From Armatimonadota bacterium (GTDB taxonomy: Bacteria; Armatimonadota; HRBIN16), in the NCBI GenBank assembly GCA_026003175.1, contig BPGT01000001.1, positions 844,839 through 908,838 of the forward strand: 64,000 nt of DNA. The letters are read 5' to 3'. The translations under genes were made by a program, and so were the position numbers. Below are positions 7,238-44,707 of this stretch, in pieces. The notes under the pieces are model-generated. The model saw only the letters and a program-made list of their open reading frames with translations, was not told where the DNA came from and did not search any database. Each line of letters starts with the position of its first letter. The first letter of the stretch is position 1.

Positions 7238-7957
7238 ATGAATCAGCCAGTTCGCGTCAAAACGCTGAAGATAGACGATCGCGATGTGAGCGGTCGCGAA
7301 GATGAGACCATCCTAGAGGTCGCCCGGCAAAACGGCATCTTCATCCCCACACTGTGTCACCTGGAAGGGCTAACACCCATCGGCGCATGCCGACTGTGTC
7401 TGGTAGAGATCAAGGGTGTATCGCGGCTGCTGCCTGCGTGCGTGACGCGGGTAGAGGAGGGGATGGAGGTATACACCCAGTCCGAGCGACTGCAGAAATA
7501 CCGACGGATGGTGCTGGAGTTGCTCTTCTCAGAGCGCAACCACATCTGCTCCGTGTGCGTGGTGAACGGCCACTGCGAGTTGCAAAGTATGGCACAGATA
7601 CTGGGCATGACGCATGTCAGCGTGCCCTACCGGTTTCCGCGCCTGCCTGTGGATGCCAGCCATGAGCGGTTTGTGGTAGACCACAACCGATGCATCCTGT
7701 GCACGCGGTGCGTGCGTGTGTGTGACGAGATCGAGGGTGCACACACCTGGGATGTGATGGGGCGTGGTATAGACAGTCGGGTCATCACCGACCTAAACCA
7801 GCCTTGGGGCGAATCCGAGACCTGCACCAGCTGCGGCAAGTGTGTGAACGTCTGCCCCACCGGCGCGCTGTTTGAGAAGGGCAAGCCGGTCTCCGATCGG
7901 CAGAAGAAACGCCAGTTTCTGCCCTACCTCACCATGATGCGGGAGGAACGGCGATGA
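7238..7957 (+). CDS. hoxU: bidirectional [NiFe] hydrogenase, Fe-S diaphorase subunit HoxU
   Basis: Corresponds to the N-terminal part of NuoG. In order: a ferredoxin-like [2Fe-2S] domain ([15 protein letters not shown], with a further Cys in LLPAC), the His-Cys3 [4Fe-4S] site ([12 protein letters not shown]), and two [4Fe-4S] motifs ([11 protein letters not shown] and [14 protein letters not shown]). At 239 residues it matches HoxU. It relays electrons between HoxF and the hydrogenase HoxYH. A GGAGGAG site precedes the ATG, and its stop overlaps the hoxY start by four bases. Confidence 0.95.
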
Positions 7958-8487
7958 GCAAAAAACGCATAGCGACCGTGTGGCTGGACGGCTGCTCCGG
8001 GTGTCACATGTCCTTTCTGGACATGGACGAGCGGCTGATCGAAGTGTTCCAGCAGGCGGATTTAGTCTATAGCCCTCTGGTAGACCTGAAGGAGTTTCCC
8101 GAACAAGTAGATATCACCCTGGTTGAAGGGGCGGTGAGCAGCGAAGAAGACCTGCACAAGATCCGAATGGTGCGCGAGCGCACGAAGATACTGGTGGCTT
8201 TTGGCGATTGCGCGGTGACCGGCAACGTACCCTCCATGCGCAACCCTTTCGGGGCGAAAGCCACCCTGCAGCGGGCTTATCTGGAGAACGTGACCTTGCA
8301 CCCACAGGTGCCTCGCGAAGCCATCCCCGCGCTTTTAGAAAAAGTTCGCCCCGTGCATGAAGTGGTGAAGGTGGACGTGTTTATTCCGGGATGTCCACCT
8401 TCGGCAGAGACCATTTTCCTCGCGCTCAGCGATCTTCTGGCAGACCGGATGCCGGACATGGCGAAGCTGACGCGCTTTGGAGCGTAA
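7954..8487 (+). CDS. hoxY: bidirectional [NiFe] hydrogenase small subunit HoxY
   Basis: The 177-residue small subunit carries the proximal [4Fe-4S] cluster next to the NiFe site. Cysteine ligands are seen in [12 protein letters not shown] (N-terminus), [16 protein letters not shown] and IPGCPPSAE. There is no Tat signal, as expected for the cytoplasmic group 3 enzymes. ATGA overlap with hoxU implies coupled translation, and hoxH follows after eleven bases. Confidence 0.95.
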
Positions 8488-8498
8488 GGAGGTACAAC

Positions 8499-9920
8499 AT
8501 GGCACAAACGATTACCATAGACCCTGTCACGCGCATCGAGGGGCATGCCAAAATCACCATCCAGCTGGATGACCAGGGTATCGTGCGCGATGCGCGTATC
8601 CATATTACCCAGTTTCGCGGTTTCGAGAAGCTGTGCGAGGGACGGCGATTCAGCGAGATGCCTGCGCTCACTGCGCGCATCTGCGGGATATGCCCCGTCA
8701 GCCACCTTGTCGCTTCTGGCAAGGCATGTGACGCGCTGCTAGCGGTGGGCATCCCCGAAACGGCGGAGAAGCTGCGGCGAATCTTCAACCTGGCACAACT
8801 GGTACAATCGCATGCGCTCAGCTTCTTCCATCTCTCCTCGCCGGACCTCCTGCTGGGCATGGATGCCGACCCTGCCGTGCGCAACATCGTGGGTGTTGTT
8901 CAGGCGAACCCGCAAATGGCCCGCGATGGTATCCGTCTGCGCCAGATTGGTCAGCAGATGATTGAGTGGCTGGCAGGCAAGCGCATTCATCCTTCGTGGA
9001 TTGTGCCAGGCGGGGTGGCGCAACCGCTCAGCGCAGAAAAGCGCGAGCAGATGCTGGCGAGCATTCCGGAAGCTATCGATATCACCCAGCGCGCTATCGC
9101 CTGGTTCAAAAGCATCCTCCATCAGTTCAGCGAGGAGATACAGACCTTTGCGAACTTCCCATCACTGTTCCTAGGCCTGGTCACCGATACGGGTGCGCTG
9201 GAGCACTACGACGGTGTACTGCGCGTGGTGGATTCCGCAGGCAACGTCATCGCCGACAAGATTGACCCCAACGATTATCAGGACTATATCGGCGAGGCGG
9301 TGGAGCCGTGGACCTATCTGAAGTTCCCCTACTACAAGCCGATTGGCTACCCGGAGGGGGTGTATCGGGTGGGTCCGCTGGCAAGGTTGAATCTGATAGA
9401 CCGGTGTGGTACGCCGCGTGCCGATGAGGCGTGGGCGGAGTTCCGCACACTGGAACGAGGCGCGGTGCTCAGCTCTTTTCATTACCACTATGCCCGCCTC
9501 ATTGAGATACTGTACGGGCTGGAGCGCATCCAGCAGTTGCTCCACGAGCCCGATATTCTGGATACGCGCGTGCAGGCAATAGCGGGTCCCAACCGCAGCG
9601 AGGGCATCGGTGTGGCGGAAGCGCCCCGCGGCACGCTCATCCACCACTATCGTATCGACAAGGATGGGTTGATTACCTGGGCGAACCTGATTATCGCCAC
9701 CGGACACAACAACCTCGCGATGAACAGGGGCATCTTGCAGGCGGCGAAACACTTCGTGAAAGGCGAGCACATTCAAGAGGGAATGCTCAACCGTGTAGAG
9801 GCGGTCATCCGCTGCTTTGATCCCTGCTTGAGCTGCTCGACGCACGCTGTGGGGCAGATGCCACTGCACATCCAACTGCTTTCGCCCTCTGGCGAGGTAC
9901 TGGATGAGGTGAGGCGGTAA
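8499..9920 (+). CDS. hoxH: bidirectional [NiFe] hydrogenase large subunit HoxH
   Basis: The catalytic subunit, 473 residues. The two CxxC pairs that bind Ni and Fe are [10 protein letters not shown] near residue 61 and DPCLSCSTH near residue 441. About 24 residues follow the last histidine ([12 protein letters not shown] and beyond); this is the tail that a HoxW-type protease removes after metal insertion. The ATG at 8499 follows TAAGGAGG; the longer in-frame extension to 8391 lies inside hoxY and is not used. It oxidises or produces H2 with NAD(H) through HoxEFU (group 3d type, by similarity of the gene set). Confidence 0.96.
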
Positions 9921-10050
9921 GCCTGCTGGTGCTGGTGGGCAAATCAATGAAGGGTCGCAGCCCTTGGTGTGTCATTGTGAGCGGCGCTGGGACGAAGCCG
10001 TCTCTTCCCCTGCAAGGGCAGCGATTGTGCTGGATAGACGAGGAAAAGAC

Positions 10051-10509
10051 ATGGCTTCGCCCATCCTGGTCATTGGCTACGGGAACACCCTTCGGCAGGA
10101 CGACGGCTTCGGCTGGCGGGTCGCGGAGCGCCTGATCCAGGAACCTGTGGAAGGTGTACAGGTGATCGCCTGTCACCAGCTCACCCCCGAGCTTGCCGAG
10201 CCGCTCAGCCGGTGCCGCATCGCCGTTTTCGTCGATGCGCGGGAGGGGGAGCCGGTGGGAAAAATGGAGTGGGAAACCGTTACTACTCCCCCCTCGCCAA
10301 ACGCTTCTTTCACTCATTCAGCAGGTCCCGCCGAGCTGTGTCTTTTGGCGCAGGTGCTTTACGGCTCGGCTCCGGCGCAGGCGTATTTGCTCACTGTGCG
10401 AAGCATGTATTTCGAACATGACGACCAGCTGTCGCCCGAGGTGGAAAAGGCTGTGCAACAGGCGGCAGCTGCTATCAAACGCTTTGCCTATGGTCACAAG
10501 CTGCAGTAA
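10051..10509 (+). CDS. hoxW: hydrogenase maturation protease (HoxW/HyaD family)
   Basis: A 152-residue protein starting MASPILVIGYGNTLRQDDGF, the G-Y-G-N-x-L-R-x-D-D-G-x-G signature of NiFe hydrogenase endopeptidases; the first aspartate is a Ni-sensing ligand in the family. A later Asp (FVDAR) and a His in the region of YFEHDDQLSP are also in place. It should cleave the HoxH tail. The ATG at 10051 has AGGAAAAG upstream; the earlier in-frame ATG-like start at 9964 gives an unconserved extension. The 130 bases between hoxH and hoxW contain a stretch (TGTCATTGTGAGCGG) that looks like a dispersed repeat fragment. Confidence 0.9.
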   Translation: MASPILVIGYGNTLRQDDGFGWRVAERLIQEPVEGVQVIACHQLTPELAEPLSRCRIAVFVDAREGEPVGKMEWETVTTPPSPNASFTHSAGPAELCLLAQVLYGSAPAQAYLLTVRSMYFEHDDQLSPEVEKAVQQAAAAIKRFAYGHKLQ

Positions 10510-10780: not shown

Positions 10781-10899
10781 CAAACTATCTATTGAAAAGG
10801 ATTTCTTTGACCATCGTCTTGGGAATTGGAAGAGGTGATTCGGGGACAATTGAGGTAATAATTAGGGCGTAAGAAAAAGTGTTGCAGGAGGAGTGCTGG

Positions 10900-11487
10900 A
10901 TGACTTACGCAGATGTATTTCGTCCCAAGGTGAAGCCCTACACTTTGCTGTATGACTTTCTCTGCATCGTGGGCAGTACGCCGTTCATCGCTCTGACGGC
11001 GCAGGTTGCCATCCCACTACCCTTCAGCCCTGTGCCCATCACGGGGCAGACGCTGGCGGTGCTTTTGACCGGGGTCTTACTGGGTAGCCGAAGAGCTGGT
11101 TGGTGTATGTTCGCCTACTTGGTGGAAGGAATGGCTGGGCTACCTGTTTTTGCAGGCGGCAAGGCGGGGATAGCGCATCTGCTTGGACCAACGGGAGGTT
11201 ATCTGTTGGGCTTTATGCCCGCGGCAATGCTTGCGGGATGGCTGGCAGAGAAGGGATGGGACAGAAGGTTCGGTACGGCTTTGACCGCTATGTTCCTGGG
11301 CAATGTGGTGATTTACCTCTTCGGGCTGCCGTGGCTGGCGTACTTTGTCGGTGCCGAGAGGGTGCTGGTTGCGGGGTGTTTACCGTTTATCCCGGGCGAC
11401 CTGATCAAAATACTGCTGGCGACAGCGATGCTCCCGGCTGGGTGGAAGTTGCTGAAAAGGTTTGAATCGAACCTCCGCTCGTGCTGA
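10900..11487 (+). CDS. bioY: biotin transporter S component BioY
   Basis: A 195-residue membrane protein with about six hydrophobic segments. The N-terminal region with FSPVPITGQTLAVLLTGVLLG and the stretch FAGGKAGIAHLLGPTGGYLLGF are the BioY signatures. BioY is the substrate-binding component of the energy-coupling-factor biotin transporter; no ECF A/T genes are in the window, so they must be elsewhere or BioY works alone. GGAGGAG at 10887 sets the ATG at 10900. It converges with the MFS gene downstream, with only three bases between stops. Confidence 0.92.
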   Translation: MTYADVFRPKVKPYTLLYDFLCIVGSTPFIALTAQVAIPLPFSPVPITGQTLAVLLTGVLLGSRRAGWCMFAYLVEGMAGLPVFAGGKAGIAHLLGPTGGYLLGFMPAAMLAGWLAEKGWDRRFGTALTAMFLGNVVIYLFGLPWLAYFVGAERVLVAGCLPFIPGDLIKILLATAMLPAGWKLLKRFESNLRSC

Positions 11488-11490
11488 TTT

Positions 11491-12660
11491 TCACGCCAGA
11501 TGCCGATTGTGTGCGCGCGCCAGCAGGATGAACACCATCAGCGCCGCCATCTGCGCCAGCACCGAAAACGCCACCAGCCCTATCACCGAACGGTCGTACA
11601 GCCACCCCATCAACGCGCTACCCAAGAACCATGCCAACCCATAGCCGGTATGGAACACACCGTAGCCCGTGCCACGGCGTTCGGAGGGGACAAGGCGTGC
11701 TACCGCCGCGCGCATTACCGACTCCTGTGCGCTCATGCCAATGCCCCACAATATCGCCCCGGTAACCGCTCCCCCAAACCCGCCCAGGAACGCCAGCGGC
11801 GCGAAGCCTGCGGAAATCACCGTCGCCAGAATGAGCGTGCCGAAGCCGATTCGGTCAAACAGTCGCCCCAGCACAAGCGCACCGATAGCGTCCACCCCCA
11901 TCGCCAGCGCATAGAACAGGGCGATGCGGCTGGAAGAGACCAGCCCCGTTTTGCCAAAGTGGTACGCCATCAGCGGGAAGTCAGCGTAGCCAGCTGCTAC
12001 CAACCCCACCGCGCCCAGATACAGCCAGTAGGTTGGGGTAAAACCTCGCGTTTGCAGGGTAACCGCTTTCGTCTCCAAATCCTGCGGACGGGGGAACTGC
12101 CATCGTGCAATGCCCAGAGCTATCAACGCCAGCAACGCAGGCACCAGCAGTACAGCGAAACCCAGTCGGTAGTCGTTGCGGATGGAGAGGGTGATGAAAA
12201 CAATCAGCGGACCCAGCACCGCGCCTATCTGGTCCATCGCCTCGTGCAGACCAAAACCCCAGCCGTGCCCCATCTGTTTGGTAGCGTGCGAGAGCATCGC
12301 GTCGCGGGCTGGGGTGCGGATGGCTTTGCCGAGACGTTCCACCACAATCAGCAAGGACGCCAGCAGCCAGTGCCCCGTCAGCGCAAGCAGAGGAACCGCC
12401 AGCAGGTTCACCGTATAGCCGGTGAAAGTAAGCAGCCAGTAGCGACGCGTGCGGTCGCTGAGGTAGCCGGAGGCAAGACGCAGCACATAGCCGACCAGCT
12501 CACCCAATCCCGATACGAAGCCCACCACCGCTCCGCTCGCGCCCAGCGCGCCCAGAAAAGGACCGGTGATACTGCGCGCGCCTTCGTAGGTCATGTCTGC
12601 ACAGAGGCTCACCAGACCCAGCAGCACAACGAAAACCACAGAACGCGGCAGCGTTTTCAT
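11491..12660 (-). CDS. MFS permease, last gene of the riboswitch operon
   Basis: A major facilitator of about 389 residues with 12 predicted membrane segments. The loop 2-3 motif is present as GYVLRLASGYLSDRTRRYW, and RTPARDAMLSHATKQMGHGWGF-like residues follow in the next loop. Substrate is not readable. I start it at the ATG at 12660 (AGAGGA eleven bases upstream); an in-frame GTG at 12705 adds 15 unconserved residues. It is 62 bases behind the stress-protein gene on the same strand, so it probably belongs to the operon that starts at the riboswitch near 15550. Confidence 0.85.
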   Translation of the reverse strand: MKTLPRSVVFVVLLGLVSLCADMTYEGARSITGPFLGALGASGAVVGFVSGLGELVGYVLRLASGYLSDRTRRYWLLTFTGYTVNLLAVPLLALTGHWLLASLLIVVERLGKAIRTPARDAMLSHATKQMGHGWGFGLHEAMDQIGAVLGPLIVFITLSIRNDYRLGFAVLLVPALLALIALGIARWQFPRPQDLETKAVTLQTRGFTPTYWLYLGAVGLVAAGYADFPLMAYHFGKTGLVSSSRIALFYALAMGVDAIGALVLGRLFDRIGFGTLILATVISAGFAPLAFLGGFGGAVTGAILWGIGMSAQESVMRAAVARLVPSERRGTGYGVFHTGYGLAWFLGSALMGWLYDRSVIGLVAFSVLAQMAALMVFILLARAHNRHLA

Positions 12661-12722
12661 AAGGTGTATGTCCTCTTTTCGAAGAGCAAGGTTAGTTTCT
12701 CGCACAGGCGGTTCGGCTCCTT

Positions 12723-13145
12723 CTATTTAGCCACCAGCACATGACAGGACACATGCGCCACGATAGACGAAGCAGTGCTGCCGAACACCCTTTCGTGTAG
12801 AGTGGAATGTCCCTGGTGCCCAATGACCACCAGGTCTACCTGATAATGCTTCACGAAGTCCACAATAGACCATACTTCGTGTCCGGCAACAATATGTGTG
12901 TACACGGGCACATCCGCCAGCTGCGCGGCGAGGCGCACCTGTCTTTCCAGCTGGGCGAAGTAGGCATCGCGCTGTTGTTTGACCTCCTCGTATTCGCCGA
13001 TGGTGGCGGCGTATTTCGGCAGGTCTTCCTCTACCATAATCACATGCAGTTCGGCTTCGAGTGCTTTCGCCAGCGCGAGCCCAGCGTTAAGCGCGCGCTC
13101 CGCGCCCTCTGAGCCGTCGAATCCGACCAGAATGCGGGAATACAT
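12723..13145 (-). CDS. universal stress protein (UspA family)
   Basis: A single-domain, 140-residue UspA protein. The N-terminal strand MYSRILVGFDGSEGAERAL and the C-terminal nucleotide-binding motif GHQGHSTLHERVFGSTAS (G-x2-G-x9-G-S) are both intact, which predicts ATP binding. It lies 14 bases behind the antiporter gene, in the same operon. Stand-alone Usp proteins next to transporters often act as nucleotide-sensing regulators, which would fit here but is an inference. Confidence 0.92.
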   Translation of the reverse strand: MYSRILVGFDGSEGAERALNAGLALAKALEAELHVIMVEEDLPKYAATIGEYEEVKQQRDAYFAQLERQVRLAAQLADVPVYTHIVAGHEVWSIVDFVKHYQVDLVVIGHQGHSTLHERVFGSTASSIVAHVSCHVLVAK

Positions 13146-13159
13146 GTTCGTTTCTCCTT

Positions 13160-14347
13160 TTATCCCTCCTCAGTGTGAGCCAGACTCACCTGCTTCTGCA
13201 CCTCTGAGTGCGACAAAGTCTCTTCCTTCACCAATGGCTTGAAGAAGCTCTGTGCGATGAGAGTGGGAACCAGCGCACTGCCTATGGTCACAGCGACCAG
13301 TAAAGTATACTGAGAAGAGGACAGGTAGCCGTGCGACAAGCCGAAGACAGCAGCAATGATGTCGAAGGTCAAACCTGTGCTCATCACCAGCGAGGTATAC
13401 GTGGCTTCGGTGTGTGACATCTTCAACTGTCGGCAAACGAGGTAAGATATGGCTGTTTTGCTCAGTATGCGGATGCCGAGTAACAACAGGATAACCATCA
13501 GACTATTCCGGAAGATAGAAGCTTGCACATAGGCGCCTGCACGCAGGAAATAGAAAGGCGTGAAGACAGCAAATGCCAGAGCACGTAGCTGGTGTAGCGA
13601 TTCGCGGTGTACTGAGAACACTGCAGATAGCGATAGACCCAGCAGGTACGCCGCTAGCAGCGCCTGTGTATCAGCAAGATCGCTCAGGCTACTGAAGAAG
13701 AGAAGTAGCAAAAGCAGGTACTTTGTTCGTGGTTGGCTAATATGTGCGCTAACTCTCCGAAAGAAGGAAGAGCTCATTAAAGGCGCCGTACAAACCGCAA
13801 CGGCGGTAGCCGCCAGATATACCGCCAACCAGATGCCTGGCTTTGTAAAAGCCAGTCCCAACAATAGCATTGCAGCCAGATTAGACATGAAACAGGCGAC
13901 CAATATCCGTCTGCCCAGAGGCGCACGGTTCATGCCAGTGTCCATCAACACTGTGTACACGATAGCGATAGAGGTTGGAGCCAGCGCGATGCCGGTGATT
14001 AGCGAGGCTTGCCATGTCCACTCCATCATCAGCCGAACCAGTAACAGTTCGGCAACAAGTGCAGTCAGGAACGATAGCAATCCAAGTGTAAGCGCCCCTT
14101 TCCATTCGCTGCATAGTGCGTACCAATCGGTTTCCGCGCCTGCCAAAAAGGTAAGCAGTATGCCACCCAGCCCCGCCAGAAAGTTAATCCACTCGTTGGG
14201 CTGGATGTGCAATATGTTACCTCCCAGCACGCCGAACAGGATTTCCGCCAGAGCAACACTCAGCGCCAGCCGTACGGAAACCAGCGACGCGGCAAGTGCC
14301 AGAGCCATCCAGATAAACGCTGTCCACCAGACGTTCATTGTCTCCAT
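13160..14347 (-). CDS. CPA2-type cation/proton antiporter
   Basis: A 395-residue, strongly hydrophobic protein with about 12 membrane segments of the monovalent cation:proton antiporter-2 (Na+/H+ exchanger) family. The conserved segment reads LLTFLAGAETDW, followed by TGIALAPTSIAIVYTVLMDTG in the unwound-helix region. There is no C-terminal TrkA-N domain, unlike KefB/C. AGGGAG precedes the ATG by six bases. As the main membrane transporter behind a fluoride-type riboswitch, it is the best candidate here for fluoride export or for pH/ion balance during fluoride stress. Confidence 0.88.
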   Translation of the reverse strand: METMNVWWTAFIWMALALAASLVSVRLALSVALAEILFGVLGGNILHIQPNEWINFLAGLGGILLTFLAGAETDWYALCSEWKGALTLGLLSFLTALVAELLLVRLMMEWTWQASLITGIALAPTSIAIVYTVLMDTGMNRAPLGRRILVACFMSNLAAMLLLGLAFTKPGIWLAVYLAATAVAVCTAPLMSSSFFRRVSAHISQPRTKYLLLLLLFFSSLSDLADTQALLAAYLLGLSLSAVFSVHRESLHQLRALAFAVFTPFYFLRAGAYVQASIFRNSLMVILLLLGIRILSKTAISYLVCRQLKMSHTEATYTSLVMSTGLTFDIIAAVFGLSHGYLSSSQYTLLVAVTIGSALVPTLIAQSFFKPLVKEETLSHSEVQKQVSLAHTEEG

Positions 14348-14356
14348 GAAATCTCC

Positions 14357-14812
14357 CTATCGTTTCGGCAGGAAGTGCATCTGCGCGATCTCCTGCACAT
14401 GCTTCAGTTCGCGTTCGACAGTGTGCTGCAGGCGACGGAGCAACTCTCGCTCCTCTTCGTTGATCTCTCCGTATCGCTTCTCGAATCGTTCGGGGTCCAG
14501 TTCCGGCAAGATAGAGTCGTGCAGGTTGCCCAGTAGCAAGCGCAGCCAGTAATAGGTGGTTTCAAGGGGTTCTGGCTGGTCATGCTGCTGCGTTAGACTA
14601 GGTACCAGCCGCCTGAGCGCATCGTGGTAGCTATCTACCAACCTCTCCAGGGCTTCCTGAAGCATTCGCCACTGTGAAGGGGGCAAAGGGGTTAGTCGCT
14701 GCCCCCCTCCGGAGGGTGAGATACCCATCCAGCCTGCCTGCGTGATGCGGCTGACCGTGTCCTCCAACTGCACCAGCAGCGCGAACAGATGTCTGCGGTG
14801 ACTATCGTTCAT
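14357..14812 (-). CDS. small helical protein of unknown function
   Basis: A 151-residue protein, helix-rich, starting MNDSHRRHLFALLVQLED. I do not recognise a family. The start at 14812 has a perfect AAGGAGG site with six-base spacing and overlaps the upstream gene by eleven bases. Residues about 25-45 (SPSGGGQRLTPLPPSQW) come from a GC-rich DNA segment that interrupts otherwise helical sequence and may be an inserted repeat. The C-terminal half is dense in Glu and Arg. It sits between the DUF6062-like gene and the antiporter gene. Confidence 0.7.
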   Translation of the reverse strand: MNDSHRRHLFALLVQLEDTVSRITQAGWMGISPSGGGQRLTPLPPSQWRMLQEALERLVDSYHDALRRLVPSLTQQHDQPEPLETTYYWLRLLLGNLHDSILPELDPERFEKRYGEINEEERELLRRLQHTVERELKHVQEIAQMHFLPKR

Positions 14813-15434
14813 GATGCACCTCCTTAGCAAAAACACCGTAAATCTTGCGCATCGCTCGACGCCAGCTACCTACCTCCTCGCCCCACGGCTCGTGCTGGAA
14901 CCGGTAGTCGTGCTTGCGAATAACCTCCTGCAGCTGCGCGCGTAGTATCTGCCATCGATGATTCTCATTAGCAACGATCCACTTTTGCACCTCGGGCGAG
15001 GCACTGCGCAGCACCTGCCGCAAGTGGGGCAGGCAAAGCCCCGAACTTCGCTCATAGCGTGTCCGCCACTCCGCCTGGTGCAACAGCTCTGCTAGCAGCT
15101 TCGTCATCTGCGCCACGTCGCGCACCTGCGCCTCGCATAGCTGGCAGTGCCATCCCACAGAAGCGCGCTTCGTTGCAGGAGCAATGGACGTATGCGCCAG
15201 CACATCCTCAGCGATAATCGCCAGAGAGAGCACGCTTGCCCGCGATAGCACTAGCTCCGCATGGTAAGCGCAGAAACCGTTGCCCTCGCGCAGGGATTGT
15301 CGCCACTGCGGGTCGTTCACATGCTCGCTCAAGAGTGTATCCACTTGACGCAGCAGATGCTGATGCGCCAGCCAACACAGCGCGCACTCGCCCTCTTGCA
15401 GAGCCTCTTCCATAGCTATCTCGGGCAGATGCAT
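14802..15434 (-). CDS. DUF6062-like cysteine-containing protein, first gene of the riboswitch operon
   Basis: A 210-residue soluble protein with two matching halves. The first has CALCWLAHQHLLRQVDTLL followed by DPQWRQSLREGNGFCAYHAE. The second has CQLCEAQVRDVAQM followed by SSGLCLPHLRQVLRSA. Each half therefore offers C-x2-C and, further on, C-x2-H, as in DUF6062 proteins. The pattern could bind a metal or an Fe-S cluster. It begins about 20 bases after the terminator of the riboswitch, so it is the gene directly controlled by it. Function is unknown. Confidence 0.75.
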   Translation of the reverse strand: MHLPEIAMEEALQEGECALCWLAHQHLLRQVDTLLSEHVNDPQWRQSLREGNGFCAYHAELVLSRASVLSLAIIAEDVLAHTSIAPATKRASVGWHCQLCEAQVRDVAQMTKLLAELLHQAEWRTRYERSSGLCLPHLRQVLRSASPEVQKWIVANENHRWQILRAQLQEVIRKHDYRFQHEPWGEEVGSWRRAMRKIYGVFAKEVHHER

Positions 15435-15453: not shown

Positions 15454-15548
15454 AAAAACGGCTCACTGTTCAACTGAACAGGAGCCATTAGCCTCCTCCG
15501 GCGGTTCGCCCTTCACACGAAGGGCAGGCGGACCTCCATCGCCTCTTC
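15454..15548 (-). promoter_or_regulatory. fluoride riboswitch (crcB motif) with overlapping intrinsic terminator
   Basis: Read on the minus strand, the leader has GGCGATGGAG and CCGCC forming the first stem (GGCG/CGCC). An optional hairpin GCCCTTC/GAAGGGC follows, then GAACCGCC and GGCTAATGGCTCCT, giving a GCC/GGC second stem. GGAG in the first loop can pair with CTCC near the 3' end as the pseudoknot. This order (GATGGAG, AACCGCC, then TRATGRCTCCT) is the crcB/fluoride aptamer pattern. The 3' strand GGCTCC is also the 5' arm of a terminator (GGCTC, CTGTTC / GAACAG, GAGCC) followed by GTTTTT at 15454-15459. Fluoride binding would protect the pseudoknot and block termination. Confidence 0.88.
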
Positions 15549-15564
15549 ATCGTCTGTGCATTTT

Positions 15565-15573
15565 ATTATACCA
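15565..15573 (-). promoter_or_regulatory. extended -10 promoter of the riboswitch operon
   Basis: TGGTATAAT on the minus strand is a consensus -10 hexamer with the TG extension. No good -35 hexamer lies at the usual distance, which is common for extended -10 promoters. Transcription would begin near 15558, about ten bases before the first riboswitch stem. Confidence 0.7.
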
Positions 15574-15803
15574 CACAAAGCGTTGTAGAAGTTGTAAGGT
15601 GGGGTTTTGTTTAAGAAGGGACGGCTTCCGTCGTGAGTATCCCCTTCGACTTGCAGGAGGAATCCTGTCGCGCAAAAAAGAGGTTTGGTAGACCATTTAA
15701 CTTGCAAAGCGGGACAATATTTGTAGTAATCGGAGCAACAAGTTAATTATTGAGGTATAATATCTCAGCTATAGCGAAGGACCCGTCTTTTGCATAGCCA
15801 AAA
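15574..15803. other. intergenic stretch without recognisable gene
   Basis: This is divergent upstream DNA between the riboswitch operon and the oxidoreductase genes. I see no open frame with support. A TATAAT at 15756-15761 without a clear -35 could be a second start for the rightward genes. The middle part is a short G/T-rich stretch with no repeat that I can match elsewhere. Confidence 0.5.
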
Positions 15804-43312: not shown

Positions 43313-44707
43313 TTAGCGTGTCTTTGCCTGCAATGACTTGATTGCTGTTCGAATGGCTCCTTTCACACCATCAGAAGGCTCCACCTGTAACCGCCGTTCC
43401 AGCACCGGTATCGCTGCAGAGGTGCTAGCAGTTGCCAGCGATTGAGCCGCTAAGCAGCGCACGTTTGGGTTTGGATGCGTTGTTAGGATATCCAGCAAGG
43501 TCGGCTCCGCGCGGGGGTCACCCAGTAGTCCTAGCGCCTTAACCGCATCCTGTGTGAGCGCAAGGCTTTGGTTCTGCTTAGCAATCCGTGTCAGTTCATC
43601 CAGTGCCTCGGGGGAACCGATTTGCCCCAGCGCGAGGATACATGCGCACTGTAGCAGTTCCGAGCCCGAACCACGCAGCAGGGCAAGCAGTTTAGGAACG
43701 GCTTCTCTCACCCGCCACCTACCAAGCAGTTGCACTGCCAGTCGTTGTGCTGCCGAGGGGTCTTTCCCGGCAGGCGGGCTATCCAGCGCCCGGAGGAGTA
43801 CTGGTATCGCCGCGGGACCTACGTACTGTTCCAGAATCACAGAGTGCTTCAATCCACGTTCCCGATTGGCAGAAGAACGCAGGAGGTCCTGTACCGCATC
43901 CTGAAGGCTCACCCCATCGGTACGCAAGCGCCAGTATGCCCAGACAATATCTGGCTCGTAAGGCTCCAGAGGCACTTCGGCGGATGGACGGTACGGCGCC
44001 CAGTTAGCCAGGAAACCGCGAAGCGCGTCCAGAGCACGCTTGTCTCCAATTCGTGCCAGCGCACGGGCACAGAATACGTCTATGTCCGCGAAACCGCCTG
44101 CGGCTGGTTTACGACACCACTCGATAAGCACAGGCACAGCGTCCCTCACACGTAACATGCCCAGCACCCGTGCCCCCTCGCGCACCCGTCTCCACCTATT
44201 CACCTTTTCCCGCCAGGGAGCGTCTGGAGCAGGCTCTGGTGTTTGGATCCACCGGAGCATGGCTTGGATATAGACCTCGTTGCCCTGCGAACGAAGACGG
44301 ATGCGTTCAATGGTCAGCCGAAGAAGGTCTGCCCATTCCCGATACGTGCCAGCGCGGTTTCCTTGTCTCTCGTATCGCTGAGCGACCTGCTCCAAGGTGG
44401 GTATCAGCCCGACTGTACCCGTATCTCCCAGGCGTTCTATCGCGTACCACCGCAGCATCTTCCACTGAGCAATGGCGGCGAACGTTTGCCGATAAGGCAC
44501 CTGGCTGTCAAGGAACTGGTCGTCCAGGTAGAGAAGCAGCTGGGAGAGGTCGGAACGGTAGAGCTGAACTAGCTCAGGAGGAGTGGGCTTGAAAATGATC
44601 CCCGGCATAACCGGTCCTGCAGGAGCCCTCAGAGGGGAATCCGCTGAGGTATGCCCAGCCACAGTCAGAATAGCCATCGCCGCAACCACGAAACCTACAA
44701 TCCACAT
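43313..44707 (-). CDS. exported HEAT-repeat protein
   Basis: A 464-residue protein with an N-terminal hydrophobic signal (WIVGFVVAAMAILTVAG) and many HEAT repeats, for example AVQLLGRWRVREAVPKLLAL, CACILALGQIGSPEALDEL and AVKALGLLGDPRAEPTLLDI. This forms a helical solenoid for protein binding, probably outside the cytoplasm. AAGGAGG lies in front of the ATG. It follows the dockerin gene on the same strand with a short gap. The TAA stop at 43313-43315 lies between HEAT repeats, with further repeats in frame after it. Confidence 0.82.
   Translation of the reverse strand: MWIVGFVVAAMAILTVAGHTSADSPLRAPAGPVMPGIIFKPTPPELVQLYRSDLSQLLLYLDDQFLDSQVPYRQTFAAIAQWKMLRWYAIERLGDTGTVGLIPTLEQVAQRYERQGNRAGTYREWADLLRLTIERIRLRSQGNEVYIQAMLRWIQTPEPAPDAPWREKVNRWRRVREGARVLGMLRVRDAVPVLIEWCRKPAAGGFADIDVFCARALARIGDKRALDALRGFLANWAPYRPSAEVPLEPYEPDIVWAYWRLRTDGVSLQDAVQDLLRSSANRERGLKHSVILEQYVGPAAIPVLLRALDSPPAGKDPSAAQRLAVQLLGRWRVREAVPKLLALLRGSGSELLQCACILALGQIGSPEALDELTRIAKQNQSLALTQDAVKALGLLGDPRAEPTLLDILTTHPNPNVRCLAAQSLATASTSAAIPVLERRLQVEPSDGVKGAIRTAIKSLQAKTR

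Follow-up and report, generated by a model that had tools for sequence, protein, structure and literature searches.

What do the first two genes of a fluoride riboswitch operon contribute when neither of them encodes a transporter? The question is raised by a locus in the window analyzed here, a stretch of 64,000 nucleotides from an Armatimonadota bacterium (contig BPGT01000001.1), in which a sequence-only reading had placed such an operon, headed by a DUF6062-like protein and by a helical protein that we call HEL. Fluoride riboswitches raise gene expression. According to passages in PMC11139923, PMC7266159, and PMC2864571, the genes known at these riboswitches include those for CrcB/Fluc, CLC-F, Na+/H+ antiporters, enolase, pyrophosphatase, HAD phosphatases, formate hydrogen lyase, and mutS, and a passage in PMC10790756 notes that many of the genes under their control have an undefined function.

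Operon layout and leader

The fluoride-type operon was borne out by the Rfam covariance model RF01734, which matches the minus strand at 15472-15552 with 38.3 bits (E 4.8e-7, gathering score 34) and matches nowhere else in the 4.1-Mb genome. Our own riboswitch model, R1, also recovers this aptamer, which was one of its training sequences; a second R1 candidate in the window (44613-44690, 13 bits, E 0.35) was taken as a chance match. Just 5' of the aptamer is a predicted sigma-70-type promoter (TCTACA, 18 nt, TAAAAT; 15560-15589, minus strand), a consensus match only, with one such site found against 0.5 expected from shuffles. The predicted expression platform (15454-15489, minus strand) consists of the hairpin GGCUCCUGUUC/GAACAGUGAGCC followed by UUUUU. 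In the predicted leader fold this hairpin takes its 5' arm from the aptamer's 3' end, so that platform and aptamer appear coupled, and the fold of the whole leader has a z of -4.15, none of 200 shuffles being equally stable. Hairpin and U run were read off the predicted fold and are absent from the output of a terminator scan, probably because the hairpin carries a bulge. As modeled, the arrangement fits a transcriptional ON switch, being the one usual for such switches: if the leader behaves as known riboswitches do, the binding of fluoride would block the terminator and turn on five genes.

All five genes lie on the minus strand, and the first two are indeed not transporters. The DUF6062 gene (14802-15434, 210 aa, PF19538) starts 37 nt after the aptamer. 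The HEL gene (14357-14812) had been listed with a GTG start at 14836 and 159 aa; the congeners share the ATG at 14812, from which HEL has 151 aa and the N-terminus MNDSHRR. With this start the gene runs 11 nt into the end of the DUF6062 frame, and coordinates from six congeners carrying both genes give the same overlap, so that the earlier description of an overlapping protein of 151 residues holds. There follow, after gaps of 9, 14, and 17 nt in turn, genes for a Na+/H+ exchanger family antiporter (13160-14347; PF00999, 119 bits), a universal stress protein (Usp; 12723-13145; PF00582, 101 bits), and an MFS transporter (11491-12705; PF07690, 121 bits), which is apparently the last gene of the operon. 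Antiporter and Usp had both been named before and were confirmed by Pfam; the CPA2 type assigned to the antiporter stands less firmly, and we call the protein CPA2-like, the NCBIfam CPA2 model TIGR00932 matching it with E 1e-28 yet below the curated cut-off.

Convergent to the end of the operon is a plus-strand gene for a BioY biotin transporter (10879-11487; PF02632). Before the operon region, at 7954-10509 on the same strand, are frames that we take, from their sequence, to resemble a NiFe-hydrogenase small subunit, large subunit, and maturation protease.

The operon can be compared with the fluoride riboswitch operon of Enterobacter cloacae FRM, which comprises ppaC, uspA, eno, gpmA, crcB, and orf5249 as described in passages of PMC5533749. 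Both operons are headed by a riboswitch, contain several genes, and encode a universal stress protein, and the enolase, CrcB, and histidine-phosphatase (gpmA-like) families recur in the relatives of the window that we examined. The window operon differs in starting with the DUF6062 and HEL genes and in having no CrcB, enolase, or pyrophosphatase gene. Set against the passages on known fluoride riboswitch genes cited above, its antiporter and riboswitch are as described.

The DUF6062 and HEL proteins

The window protein matches the Pfam profile PF19538 with 81 bits (cut-off 27). It has two half-repeats, each with a CxxC followed by GxCxxH, as had been noticed from the letters; the eight residues concerned (C17/C20/C55/H58 and C97/C100/C134/H137) are all invariant in 57 sequences (alignment A5), and the two half-profiles align with each other at 98.2% probability (E 4e-14). 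Toward the C-terminus a motif IRKxDYRF..E..G.E is conserved, most of ExxRKxDYR being invariant in the 57 homologues. The half-repeat and RKxDYRF hallmarks, both of which the window protein has, were derived from our alignments and not from the Pfam text. Comparisons with congeners indicated purifying selection, with dN of 0.12-0.34 and dS of 0.95-1.3 in six comparisons, among which one further dS value was saturated.

The predicted structure is all-helical and confident (pLDDT 92.1, pTM 0.84). A Foldseek search of the PDB with this model gave 219 matches, none with E <=0.001 (best 0.85), and a second structural comparison reached a best Z of 6.2, its rows covering mostly residues 112-210. Searching the PDB sequences with the A5 profile gave weak matches only (AP-4 subunit, E 0.03; S18, E 0.05). 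DUF6062 thus has no PDB relative by fold or sequence in these searches, which does not by itself prove a new fold.

The zinc-type ligand residues of DUF6062 are invariant, and zinc binding is predicted from them. From the letters alone, roles in sensing, metal protection, or repair had been suggested, and these stand as conjecture. Read in this way, the residues would let DUF6062 buffer, deliver, or sense a metal (Zn, Mg, or Mn) at times when metals are complexed by fluoride, and so protect enzymes such as enolase. Eight invariant Cys/His residues in two sites are compatible with it, as are the enolase genes in several operons of this kind (L072, L073, L086, L158). However, C2CH sites within helical scaffolds, as in zinc knuckles, are usually structural, and a protein that delivers metal should lie close to metal transporters, none of which recurs in the clusters examined. 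We consider a metal-handling role distinctly unlikely. We put the chance that DUF6062 is instead an adaptor at about even; it would be a zinc-stabilized, all-helical adaptor and HEL its small helical partner.

HEL belongs to no curated family, and Pfam matches to GLTSCR1 and CorA fell far under the cut-offs and were rejected. It is under purifying selection (dN 0.05-0.18, dS 0.75-2.0 in seven congener comparisons), with the lowest dN among the three operon proteins compared. Its model, built from seven sequences, has four helices at a pLDDT of 75.6, and at that model confidence its best structural matches were Dps/ferritin-like proteins (Z 10.1 over 122 residues, 3.6 A rmsd), a score within the chance range, since the tool's own note warns that helical bundles often give a Z under about 13. 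HEL resembles these proteins in its four-helix arrangement but differs from them in having no conserved Glu, Asp, or His ligands: the only invariant or nearly invariant columns of alignment A4 are L42, G114, and L124. We rejected a ferritin or Dps identity because the conserved metal ligands are absent. A search of the PDB sequences with the A4 profile gave weak matches only (SEPALLATA 3 coiled coil, E 0.0025).

A role in a defense system was likewise rejected. The PADLOC models gave no match to DUF6062 or to HEL at E 0.01; the dynamin-like proteins described below match the LeoA/LeoBC models, as is expected of any bacterial dynamin-like protein.

Placement at and away from fluoride riboswitches

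We surveyed 251 genomes of the Armatimonadota for DUF6062, merging pieces less than 400 nt apart (75 pieces gave 48 loci). A riboswitch on the same strand lay within 7 kb of 28 of the 48 loci, where random placement predicts about 0.1, whereas one on the opposite strand did so at a single locus. With riboswitches above the gathering score alone, 25 of the 48 loci were still linked; 19 of the 112 riboswitches in the phylum list score below it, and the phylum-wide searches used the stricter filters of Infernal, which may miss weak riboswitches. A linked copy occurs in 17 of 29 genera. At the level of genomes, DUF6062 is present in 42, a riboswitch in 89, and both in 33 of the 251 (Fisher p 4e-10); the genomes used here are mostly metagenome assemblies. 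The control set consisted of weaker GTPase matches in these genomes, one piece per gene; among those listed, 0 of 73 lay near a riboswitch, 23 of them being in riboswitch-bearing genomes.

The association extends beyond the phylum. In a sample of 201 genomes of a second phylum, labeled Chloroflexota, 19 of 64 DUF6062 loci (merged in the same way) were linked, with 0.13 expected; co-occurrence across whole genomes was weak there (24/52 vs 42/149, p 0.025). Further named loci, labeled Chloroflexota, Aerophobetes, Omnitrophota, Sumerlaeota, UBP3, Thermotogae, Rokuibacteriota, and others, gave 19 linked out of 68 (R1, E <=0.01) after 12 of 80 had been dropped as copies of genomes counted before; 8 of the 49 without a riboswitch have fewer than 1,500 upstream bases present. 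Weaker R1 candidates in L190 and L194 (E 0.02 and 0.31) have one end near the DUF6062 start and were left uncounted. The lack of enrichment that would speak against a fluoride-stress role is therefore not what the survey found, DUF6062 being strongly enriched at fluoride riboswitches. Usp and antiporter genes, which had been proposed as neighbors to look for, or enolase genes often stand beside riboswitch-linked DUF6062, and the gene maps show DUF6062 and HEL in many orders among antiporter, Usp, enolase, CrcB, and MFS genes (MFS map labels of less than 200 residues denote the zinc-ribbon/HEAT family described below, which the single-linkage MFS cluster also held).

A quickly built tree of 125 DUF6062 sequences requires no fewer than 23 changes of the riboswitch label, compared with a mean of 41.6 for shuffled labels, and supported branches force 10 of these changes. 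The label is clustered yet recurs throughout the tree, which was made with FastTree and has several long branches joined; frames of more than 400 aa were excluded except for the DUF6062 part of L078.

HEL was followed with a profile of 20 sequences, which found it in 46 of the 251 genomes. Riboswitches are linked to 32 of its 47 loci (28 with riboswitches above the gathering score) and to copies in 22 of 33 genera; of the 46 genomes with HEL, 37 also carry a riboswitch (p 5e-12). Since some of the profile sequences were themselves taken from riboswitch loci, a fair count has to come from HEL genes held out of profile building: 11 of 25 are linked, 7 of them to riboswitches above the gathering score. 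DUF6062 was not detected nearby by Pfam at 13 linked HEL loci, and at two of these, L213 and L215, our own profile found a DUF6062 gene that Pfam had missed. Near neither a riboswitch nor DUF6062 are 14 of the 47 loci; 13 of them, re-scanned alongside 7 linked loci, showed no convincing riboswitch. At one unlinked locus, L199, a CrcB/Usp/dynamin cluster is broken at the contig end.

We find it hardly credible that sampling, or a HEL profile built from riboswitch loci, produced the association. The origin of the profile does favor such an artefact, as does the repeated counting of congeners. However, the DUF6062 result rests on externally made Pfam and Rfam models, and the association holds by genus (17/29), in a second phylum, by strand (28 vs 1), against the control (0/73), and in the held-out HEL genes (11/25). 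From these sequence surveys we regard membership of DUF6062 and HEL in the fluoride regulon as strongly supported and very probable.

Several other features recur around these loci. Divergent fluoride riboswitches, on both strands, lie near DUF6062 and transporter genes at L127:11482-13549, L161:6878-7110, L181:1269-1450, and L158:6498-10605. An open reading frame of about 125-196 aa with the look of an N-terminal CxxC zinc ribbon followed by HEAT repeats was seen at L086:3662-4153, L146:4129-4596, L133:960-2741, L071:6293-6700, L183:6739-7221, and L190:4790-5272; it is the first gene after the riboswitch in L146 and is fused to an MFS transporter in L133. Cytidylate-kinase-like genes recur in fluoride loci as well (L072:2290-2934, L086:4629-5234, L088:7138-7701, L199, L209), the one in L072 (PF13189) directly after the riboswitch.

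A substantial share of DUF6062 loci has no riboswitch within 7 kb, namely 20 of 48 in the phylum (about 40%) and 70% of those sampled from the Chloroflexota (45 of 64), and re-scanning the riboswitch-less loci of the phylum with R1 found none. One family within the phylum has a group of DUF6062 genes that lack a riboswitch and stand beside a gene for a coiled-coil protein, a neighbor present at 11 of 68 riboswitch-less DUF6062 loci. At L089-L092, L094-L098, L102, and L105, where there is no riboswitch, DUF6062 is paired with a long coiled-coil protein, several of the pairs lying beside SIS-domain and HhH-GPD/NUDIX genes; these pairs are a possible second DUF6062 system. We also noted a DUF6062-coiled-coil fusion and apparent double DUF6062 proteins at L171:8805-9869, L171:9119-10981, and L157:2216-3403.

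Because this riboswitch-less set exists with its own coiled-coil partner, the job of DUF6062 is not fluoride alone, and together with the share of unlinked loci it means that DUF6062 is more aptly described as a family of adaptors that the fluoride response often recruits than as a protein specific to fluoride. A stronger form of this idea makes DUF6062 and HEL adaptors for stress in general, with a basic role (e.g., coiled-coil or GTPase scaffolding) that is not specific to fluoride, fluoride operons being one deployment. The coiled-coil pairs at 11 of the 68 loci and the fusion in L171 point that way, as does the presence of HEL outside fluoride loci; moreover, in genomes of the bacterial family with the coiled-coil neighbor the riboswitches head enolase or, in four cases (L109, L110, L111, L115), CrcB pairs. 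Yet placement of DUF6062 and HEL at riboswitches is repeated across the tree and strand-specific, and some riboswitch-less loci (e.g., L099, L159, L189, L190) keep enolase, CrcB, Usp, or antiporter genes. On balance we find this general role somewhat unlikely. Taken whole, with its inferred steps, the reading that gives DUF6062 and HEL an accessory, non-transport part in a bacterial fluoride-stress regulon has, in our judgment, a slightly better than even chance.

Exporters, dynamin-like GTPases, and the role of the pair

Neither known exporter family was found by Pfam in the window operon or in the 10 genomes of its genus: CrcB (PF02537) was found in 0 of 10, with 10 of 14 control genomes positive, and CLC (PF00654) in 0 of 10, with 12 of 14 control genomes positive. 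The operon thus encodes no known exporter. Within the phylum, CrcB is rarer in genomes with linked DUF6062 or HEL than in other riboswitch genomes (10/36 vs 34/53, p 0.001); leaving out the window's genus, the sole correction for kinship, gives 10/28 vs 34/53 (p 0.02), and CLC was covered for the genus only. DUF6062, HEL, or dynamin genes lie within 7 kb of 51 of the 112 riboswitches of the phylum and CrcB at no fewer than 42 of the 112, a lower bound because the 41 CrcB matches behind it were hand-picked from riboswitch contigs.

These counts would suit a reading in which DUF6062, HEL, or both are subunits or regulators of an unrecognized fluoride exporter based on the antiporter or the MFS protein, the genus having neither CrcB nor CLC and CrcB being less frequent where the two families are linked. 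Against it, no membrane segment is predicted in the DUF6062 or HEL models, both families occur without an antiporter at many loci (e.g., L074, L070, L083), CrcB is present at some (L081), and the CrcB contrast is corrected for kinship only by omission of one genus. An exporter subunit is therefore, in our estimate, unlikely.

The accessory reading gains a candidate partner in the dynamin-like GTPases. Phylum-wide, 19 of 68 dynamin-type matches of >=34 bits, and 18 of 64 of >=41 bits, lie within 7 kb of a riboswitch (an earlier list of 19/65 had a cut at about 41 bits with the weaker G044 added by hand, and was recounted at these uniform cut-offs); the other 49 of the 68 are not near one. In ten matches only 206-366 nt separate the riboswitch from the GTPase domain. 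Eleven mapped loci contain a dynamin-like GTPase, excluding L079:2-700, which is EF-Tu-like and was rejected as a false match, and in five (L074, L080, L083, L084, L085) it is the direct neighbor of DUF6062. The G1, G3, and G4 motifs are all kept in 10 of 12 Dynamin_N profile matches, while L066, an open frame of 431 aa, is without G1 and G4.

In L078 the two proteins form a single frame of 896 aa (Dynamin_N at 122-280, DUF6062 at 682-825), directly after the riboswitch, and none of the P-loop, DTPG, and NKxD motifs is lost. Only one such fusion was seen, in a genome of 580 contigs with 7% estimated contamination; it had also joined DUF6062 and dynamin in our first gene cluster. Known bacterial dynamin-like proteins (DynA of Bacillus subtilis, LeoA/LeoBC) share the GTPase motifs and Dynamin_N with these proteins, which differ in lying under a fluoride riboswitch and beside or fused with DUF6062. 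DynA gathers at damaged membranes and acts in membrane surveillance, as a passage of PMC8844932 describes. The window's own genome gave no dynamin-like gene and only weak GTPase matches (best listed E 2.3e-4), and dynamin is therefore an optional partner.

Entry of HF acidifies cells, and antiporters answer the acidification, according to a passage of PMC11139923. DUF6062 and HEL may serve membrane upkeep under such HF and acid stress. In many relatives they would act on the dynamin-like GTPase of the same fluoride operon, whereas in the window's genome their only partners would be the antiporter, Usp, and MFS proteins. The link to a membrane GTPase is possible rather than probable, and we hold just as tentatively that DUF6062 is a zinc-type helical adaptor acting with HEL and such a GTPase. 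Bolder still, and a little more doubtful, is the idea that bacteria, besides exporting fluoride and substituting for inhibited enzymes, use a fluoride-switched membrane-remodeling module, in which dynamin-like GTPase, DUF6062 adaptor, and HEL would seal or reshape membranes made leaky by HF and acid, and in which the DUF6062-HEL core with the antiporter and MFS proteins would be the whole fluoride answer where CrcB and CLC are absent.

The main gene survey of fluoride riboswitches is reportedly that of Baker et al. 2012, which, like its supplement and most subscription papers, lay outside the scope of our literature search. The searchable literature does not contain the term "DUF6062", nor does it mention "fluoride riboswitch" together with "dynamin" or with "Armatimonad"; the main text of PMC11139923 has neither "dynamin" nor the prefix "DUF". 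As far as this literature shows, a dynamin-like GTPase is here tied to fluoride for the first time, and two families, DUF6062 and HEL, are named as recurrent at fluoride riboswitches in several phyla. A riboswitch-bearing genus without either exporter family and a natural dynamin-DUF6062 fusion offer direct test cases, and the subject is relevant to the engineering of organisms that survive fluoride freed from fluorinated chemicals. DUF6062 and HEL look like unrecognized parts of bacterial fluoride defense; if the proposed module is true, the DUF6062-HEL pair, the antiporter, and the MFS protein in the window's genus would imply an undescribed route of fluoride export or tolerance.
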